A stretch of 64,000 nt of DNA from Leptolyngbya sp. BC1307 (GTDB lineage: Bacteria; Cyanobacteriota; Cyanobacteriia; Phormidesmidales; Phormidesmidaceae). Below, piece after piece: positions 61,946 to 63,407 of this stretch. The position numbers and the translations under genes are program-made. The first letter of the stretch is position 1; each line of letters opens with the position of its first letter. The notes beneath the pieces are model-generated. The model ran no database searches. It was given only the letters and a program-made list of their open reading frames with translations, and was not told the origin of the DNA. The stretch is from NCBI RefSeq assembly GCF_002286735.1, contig NZ_NRTA01000015.1, positions 1 to 64,000 on the forward strand, given 5' to 3'.

Positions 61946-62212
61946 ATGCTGACTTCTTATCATTACTTACTCGGCGGCATTATGACCGTTTCGTGCGCCA
62001 CTGGCTCTGTTGCTCATAGCGTAGCTGTCTCCCAAATGTCACCTATCTCTTTTGAGCAGAGACAGCGTGAGCTGATTCAAGTTTCTGATCGGGGCAGCGG
62101 TCGTCTAGGTGGCAACCCAGCCAATACCCAAGAACCAGGCGAGGAAGCTCTGACTACTGTGCCCTGGAGCATAGGCTCTTTCGCCTCTATTCTCAGTAGA
62201 GCGTCCATTTGA
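61946..62212 (+). CDS. patX: PatX-like RGSGR-containing small exported protein
   Basis: An 88-residue protein upstream of hetR. Residues about 6-29 look like a signal or membrane segment (YLLGGIMTVSCATGSVAHSVA). Residues 49-53 are exactly RGSGR (62090-62104), preceded by Asp, as in the PatX family. RGSGR is the active sequence of PatS and HetN in Anabaena, where it binds HetR and blocks differentiation. PatX proteins encoded just upstream of hetR are known in many filamentous cyanobacteria. Here 35 residues follow RGSGR. The start ATG 61946 lacks a strong ribosome site. Confidence 0.85.
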   Translation: MLTSYHYLLGGIMTVSCATGSVAHSVAVSQMSPISFEQRQRELIQVSDRGSGRLGGNPANTQEPGEEALTTVPWSIGSFASILSRASI

Positions 62213-62304
62213 CTGTCGCCAAAAGTGTGCTCAAGCAGACGGTAAGAGGGATTGACAGGCTGCTGCTAAAAAGTTAGTTAGCTGTCAGTTGGGAATGGCT
62301 TTTA

Positions 62305-62333
62305 TTAACTAGCATCCGTATCCGGTGTAGAAT
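62305..62333 (+). promoter_or_regulatory. hetR: Candidate hetR promoter
   Basis: TTAACT (62305-62310, 4 of 6) and TAGAAT (62328-62333, 5 of 6) are spaced exactly 17 bases, giving a start near 62340 and a leader of about 144 bases. The match is suggestive only. Confidence 0.35.
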
Positions 62334-62350
62334 ATGGGCTAAGTAAAGGA

Positions 62351-62385
62351 TTCTTAAGAAGCTGTTGTTATAGGCACAGCTGTTG
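62351..62385 (+). repeat. hetR: Palindrome and direct repeat in the hetR leader
   Basis: TTCTTAAGAA (62351-62360) is a perfect 10-bp palindrome. AGCTGTTG follows twice (62360-62367 and 62378-62385), 18 bases from start to start. They lie just after the candidate promoter and could be a protein-binding site; no known HetR-site consensus is recognisable. Confidence 0.5.
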
Positions 62386-62483
62386 CGATACAGGTTTTCT
62401 CCGCTAGCAATATGCCAGGCTGCTTCGCTAGTCCGTCTTTTGTGCATTCTATACATTAAGCATTTACGCTTGATCGAGTTTTG

Positions 62484-63407
62484 ATGACCAGCAACACCGA
62501 TTTAGTAAAGAAACTAGAACCCAGCGCGATTGACGAAATCATGATGTATTTGGCCTTTAGCGCCATGTGCACGGGCGGGCATCGTCACGGCGCTTTTTTA
62601 GATGCAGCGGCAACAGCAGCCAAGTGCGCTATCTATACAACCTATATAGAGCAGGGTAGAAACCTGCGCATGACCGGACATCTGCATCACATCGAGCCGA
62701 AGCGGGTGAAGGCAATTGTCGAGGAGATGCAGGCCGCGCTGACTGAAGGCAAACTGCTAAAAATGCTGGGGTCGCAGGAGCCGGGCTATCTGATTCAGCT
62801 ACCGCACGCTTGGCTGCAGCGGCATCCGTGGCAGCTTGGAGAATTTCGGCTGCCGGGCACTAGCCTAAGCTCCGATGAAAAGCGGCAGGTAGAAGCCAAA
62901 CTAGAAGCAGCTGGCCTGCCTGACCCGCTACCGGATGCTCAACTGCTGACCGGGTTTCAGTTTATGGAGCTGGTAGACTCTCTCCACACCCGCTCCCAAT
63001 CGACGCTGCCAGAAGACCGCCGAATGCAGCTTAGCGACGCGCTCGCTGAGCATATCCGGCGGCGATTGATCTACGCAGGTACCGTTGCTCGAATTGACTC
63101 GCCAATGGGTGGAATGCCTTTCTACGCGCTCACTCGGGCTTCTTACTCGCCGGTGGGCGAAGAAGAACGCACCTACACCATGATGGACGACACCGCCCGC
63201 TACTTTCGCCTGATGCGAGAGTGGACCAACTGCCATCAGGGCACTCGCCGAATTCTGGAGGAACTCAATATTCCTAGTGAAAAGCGAGAAGCCGCCTTCG
63301 ACGAACTCGACCAGCTGATTAGCCAGTGGGCCAACAAGTATCATGCTGACGGTGGCAAGCCGACGGTAATACAGATGGCGATGGGCGATAGCGACTCTCC
63401 CCACTAA
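62484..63407 (+). CDS. hetR: Heterocyst differentiation master regulator HetR
   Basis: A 307-residue HetR, the DNA-binding master regulator of patterning in Anabaena, present also in other filaments. The N-terminus matches closely: [43 protein letters not shown] with Cys48 conserved, [19 protein letters not shown] and [20 protein letters not shown]. The middle has [24 protein letters not shown] and GMPFYALTR; the C-terminus has [19 protein letters not shown] (256-262) and [10 protein letters not shown]. It is a few residues longer than the 299-residue Anabaena protein, mainly near 120-150. ATG 62484 is chosen over TTG 62481. Confidence 0.95.

Follow-up and report, generated by a model that had tools for sequence, protein, structure and literature searches.

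Can a HetR regulator be held in check by its own exported peptide in a cyanobacterium that lies outside the heterocyst formers? Two neighbouring genes raise this question in the window, the whole 64,000-nucleotide stretch of Leptolyngbya sp. BC1307 DNA that was analysed. The upstream gene encodes a protein with the RGSGR core through which PatS and HetN of Anabaena act on HetR, and the downstream gene is hetR. PatS is a peptide of 17 residues and HetN resembles an enzyme and is larger, whereas the window encodes an 88-residue, signal-peptide-like precursor.

The patX gene and its promoter

The patX frame (61946..62212, + strand) is defined by the ORF listing, by hydrophobicity and by orthologous frames 5′ of hetR in the family; its stop codon lies 271 nt from the hetR ATG (62484) on the same strand. 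The ORF coordinates and a six-frame motif scan of the 64 kb bear out the predicted arrangement. RG[S/T]GR occurs once in the window, at PatX residues 49–53 (62090..62104, +), where it forms the predicted HetR-binding core of the hexapeptide DRGSGR. The hydrophobic N-terminus, assigned by hydrophobicity, spans residues 8–22 of the frame; the stretch LLGGIMTVSCATGSV has a mean Kyte-Doolittle value of 1.5, the second lowest among seven PatX compared.

The patX promoter (61885..61924, +) begins with a DIF1-like −35 element, TCCTGA (61885–61890), 61 nt 5′ of the ATG, followed 17 nt further 3′ by the conserved block GTAACAGTGAGTAAC. TCCTGA precedes patX in 81 of 85 sampled genes, mostly 58–64 nt from the start, and GTAACAGggaaTAG or a near variant stands ∼17 nt 3′ of it, a spacing conserved among patX genes. 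The element is one base off the published DIF1 sequence TCCGGA, at the published position; Elhai and Khudyakov (2018) are said to have placed the DIF1 motif of patX within 69 nt 5′ of the start. No wider promoter regulon is claimed, because TCCTGA-N16-20-TAACAG has three matches in the genome and the reversed control pattern has two. The interval that separates the two genes contains CGGTGTAGAATATGG-CTAAGTAAAG (62320–62352, +), common to the window and one relative (G001) and possibly a separate hetR promoter.

A short frame that finds no family in Pfam and NCBIfam searches might be a chance open frame rather than a gene, but the conserved frame, core and promoter already refute this reading and leave it practically no probability. 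Lack of conservation of the RGSGR frame in close relatives had been set beforehand as one way to refute the original prediction, and the relatives do not refute it. Frame, RGSGR and promoter recur 5′ of hetR in all five members of the genus with readable upstream sequence, and likewise in 27/27 family genomes whose primary hetR is preceded by sufficient sequence. The five genus frames start with ML and keep RGSGR, with little else in common beyond the hydrophobic N-terminus. The identification as PatX is well supported, as is the patX-hetR unit. RGSGR, DIF1-type promoter and co-occurrence with HetR match the PatX family described in filamentous cyanobacteria (PMC7761841, PMC12756182), and the mildly hydrophobic N-terminus may correspond to the Sec signal of that family. 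The window differs from that description in having TCCTGA for TCCGGA and a probable decayed second core, and its family differs in having 2–9 cores per precursor.

The hetR gene and the host

No HetR gene other than this hetR (62484..63407, +; 307 residues) was found in the genome (4.9 Mb, 99.99% complete). The listed frame opens at TTG 62481, one codon 5′ of the ATG at which close relatives start, and homology supports ATG 62484. The protein matches NCBIfam NF009718 with E=1e-140 and 468 bits, slightly below the 489-bit cut-off, and exceeds the cut-offs of both PF03574 (Peptidase_S48) and PF18460 (hood domain) in Pfam; it matches the HetR chains in the PDB, including 3qod, with E=1e-132. The nearest named records, Phormidesmis priestleyi, Leptolyngbya foveolarum and cf. 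Phormidesmis, are 83–88% identical, and by relationship the host would be a Leptolyngbya-like, non-heterocystous cyanobacterium.

Mo-nitrogenase, a mark of a heterocyst circuit, is not found: a search for nifD in the 99.99% complete genome gave no match. At 59189–59923 (+) the window does encode a protein in which a TerB-like domain is combined with Mo-nitro_C (PF06967), the C-terminus of Mo-dependent nitrogenase, though the genome has no nifD. Near the window end, a short tandem repeat (63761–63870, in the − strand frame 63604–63999) codes for repeated PETTL units without a Pfam match.

The original prediction had set the circuit against the near absence of heterocyst genes. The absence holds, to judge from nifD, but the contrast falls away: the PatX/HetR pair, described throughout filamentous cyanobacteria, is thought to be older than heterocysts (PMC7761841), so that missing heterocyst genes are no puzzle in a genome without nifD. 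Leptolyngbya BL0902, compared here by description, is a filament that forms no heterocysts and lacks nif; it too has patX directly 5′ of hetR, and co-transcription of the two genes has been proposed there (PMC11298460). Because a Leptolyngbya patX-hetR has thus already been described and deleted (PMC11298460), the pairing in non-heterocystous filaments is itself ordinary.

A 2025 survey confines the joint presence of patP, hetR and patX to other orders and cites a Leptolyngbya that has hetR but no patX (PMC12756182), in contrast with the present survey, where patX stands beside hetR throughout a Leptolyngbya-like family. Outside the family, an adjacent PatX is found at 59 of 82 sampled hetR genes. 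In another family (f32), none of 11 genomes has patX within 1.6 kb of hetR; patX is therefore not always hetR-adjacent.

Multi-copy precursors and a probable decayed copy

PatX of the family commonly carries its core several times. There are 2–9 RG[S/T]GR cores per precursor in 23 of the 27 family genomes, with nine in G008; the remaining four, with one core each, are all members of the genus to which the window belongs. Among the 59 adjacent PatX outside the family, multi-core precursors occur only in G192 (eight) and G090 (three). Selection on the cores was assessed by pN/pS between species, which replaced a comparison between copies within one precursor; the latter was dropped as circular, the copies having been found by motif. 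In one genus (g13) the cores have pN 0.01 and pS 0.32, with a spacer pN of 0.11; in another (g2) the values are 0.01, 0.59 and 0.47. Since the cores barely change in protein while synonymous sites do, the copies are kept individually, each under strong purifying selection between drifting spacers, as expected for a precursor yielding several peptides. In yeast alpha-factor, too, a single active peptide is repeated with variable spacers in between, a feature of the relatives of the window's PatX; sequence and processing are unrelated, and the likeness is an analogy only. A literature phrase search for repeated RGSGR cores in PatX, with Elhai and Khudyakov 2018 outside its scope, gave no match.

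The window's PatX suggests a two-copy precursor whose second copy has decayed. It reads RGSGR, 20 residues, WSIGS (residues 74–78; 62165..62179, +), 10 residues and stop, where G005 has RGSGR-20-RGGGR-10-stop and G001 has RGSGR-19-RGSGR-10-stop. WSIGS is a probable relic by position, because its distances to the first copy and to the stop both match those of the relatives; at the DNA level the similarity of the relic itself is weak. The first or only RGSGR is invariant in the five readable genus members, preceded by D, Y or H.

The peptide pocket of HetR

In the crystal structure of HetR with PatS6, the peptide is contacted by Glu253, Glu254, Asp256, Asp270 and Asp278, with Arg223 near its C-terminus (PMC4649674). 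Alanine replacement in Anabaena HetR raises the Kd from 12 nM in the wild type to 91 (E254A), 427 (D256A), 2252 (D270A) and 1626 nM (D278A), and E253A abolishes binding (PMC4649674). Two of these contacts are changed in the window: Asn262 (AAT, 63267..63269, +) is equivalent to Asp256 and Asn284 (AAC, 63333..63335, +) to Asp278, and between contact positions 270 and 278 Ser280 (63321..63323, +) is equivalent to Arg274. The comparison set comprised 86 primary HetRs from outside the genus, of which 85 came from genomes and one was the sequence of the Anabaena structure. In the genus (the Phormidesmis group), 6/6 HetRs have Asn at positions 256 and 278, against Asp in 85 of the 86 others (one has Glu) and in 86/86, respectively; at position 274 the genus has Ser, against Arg in 86/86 others. 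The genus keeps R223, E253, E254 and D270 and therefore lacks the full Anabaena PatS6 contact set; R223, E253 and D270 are invariant across all readable HetRs.

Six of 113 near-invariant HetR columns are changed genus-wide, two of them among the five near-invariant contacts (Fisher p=0.022, a post hoc value for one stem lineage). In the HetR tree the genus is a strongly supported clade on a long stem, and the pocket changes were therefore probably inherited once.

Changes of this kind invite the reading that genus HetR is escaping peptide control, with PatX vestigial and HetR constitutive or under other inputs. Two contact residues and R274 changed on the genus stem, the second copy reads RGGGR in G005 while the window has WSIGS there, and the genus has one or two copies where other family genera have 2–9. 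Full relaxation is nevertheless unlikely, as the first or only core has stayed intact despite diverging spacers and N-termini, the promoter is kept, and so are D270 and the indispensable E253.

The substitutions might instead be co-adapted, with N256/N278 and S274 altering details of recognition at undiminished affinity. The same N256/N278 pair is carried by both extra HetR paralogues of G137. A short frame of PatS-like size ending in MKPQSTDGRGSGR-stop lies 202 nt 5′ of one of them (L112, G137:C6:388170-389830). Because of this RGSGR mini-frame beside an N256/N278 paralogue, the pair need not mean a lost or weak peptide response, and the use of D, Y and H alike before RGSGR would also suit retuned recognition. 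Against this, the side chain preceding RGSGR has no effect on binding (PMC4649674), which leaves little specificity to retune, and alanine at 256 or 278 lowers affinity strongly, by ∼36-fold and ∼135-fold in Anabaena HetR (PMC4649674), though the genus has Asn there; retuning without weakening is accordingly rather improbable.

Several relatives (L184–L189) have a second HetR, ∼50% identical, and E254 is replaced by Val in five of 12 readable paralogues; the four E254V paralogues with upstream sequence sampled have no RGSGR frame within 1.6 kb. Among HetRs paired with PatX, replacement of E254 accompanies many cores in two clades: G008 (nine), G028 (five) and G021 (four) in the first, G192 (eight) and G090 (three) in the second. 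Counterexamples with one core are two members of the second clade, G169 and G187 (the latter also with a degenerate RGSDR), and, from elsewhere, G154; moreover, E254 is kept in many multi-core family members. With too few independent clades, a paired test of E254 change against copy number has no power to reach significance, and the association is a lead, not a result. It is possible, though doubtful, that PatX of Leptolyngbya-like cyanobacteria is a multi-peptide precursor whose RGSGR copy number evolves together with the peptide affinity of HetR. If so, the loss of charges from the pocket would have gone along with the loss of copies in Phormidesmis, and its HetR and PatX would be a natural pair of low affinity.

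A probable remodelled PatX-HetR circuit

The reading we favour, and consider fairly likely, is PatX-HetR inhibition with a remodelled pocket and one intact copy, persisting at lower affinity or dose. PatX would be secreted as a precursor and cut by a PatP-type extracytoplasmic peptidase to XRGSGR, here DRGSGR; the released peptide would enter the same or neighbouring cells and bind the HetR hood domain, lowering HetR DNA binding as in Anabaena. Export of PatX followed by PatP cleavage has been reported, and PatX6 binds Anabaena HetR with a Kd of 88 nM, blocking DNA binding (PMC12756182). In the genus this binding would involve a pocket altered by D256N, R274S and D278N, with two negative charges fewer and presumably weaker affinity, and a precursor that in most members retains a single intact copy.

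A wholly different role for PatX has to be weighed, in which it acts independently of HetR in Leptolyngbya-like strains and has its place next to hetR by inheritance. Deletion mutants of BL0902 point this way, since in their transcriptomes the PatX effects looked HetR-independent (PMC11298460). Transcriptome grouping is indirect evidence, however, and throughout the class RGSGR and the core residues of the pocket are retained jointly, which makes this role very improbable. The self-inhibiting circuit of the original prediction is plausible but less certain than was assumed, given Asn at D256 and D278, the apparent loss of the second copy and the BL0902 result.

The output of the favoured circuit is unlikely to be heterocyst spacing, because nifD is absent; it may rather be filament patterning, such as the formation of necridia, which has been proposed for non-heterocystous strains. 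Two of six peptide-contact residues are naturally substituted in this genus, and the precursors of its family carry one to nine separately selected copies, so that test pairs are ready to hand. Such pairs can show what the affinity of the receptor and the dose of the ligand do to the ancient PatX-HetR circuit in heterocyst-free filaments.
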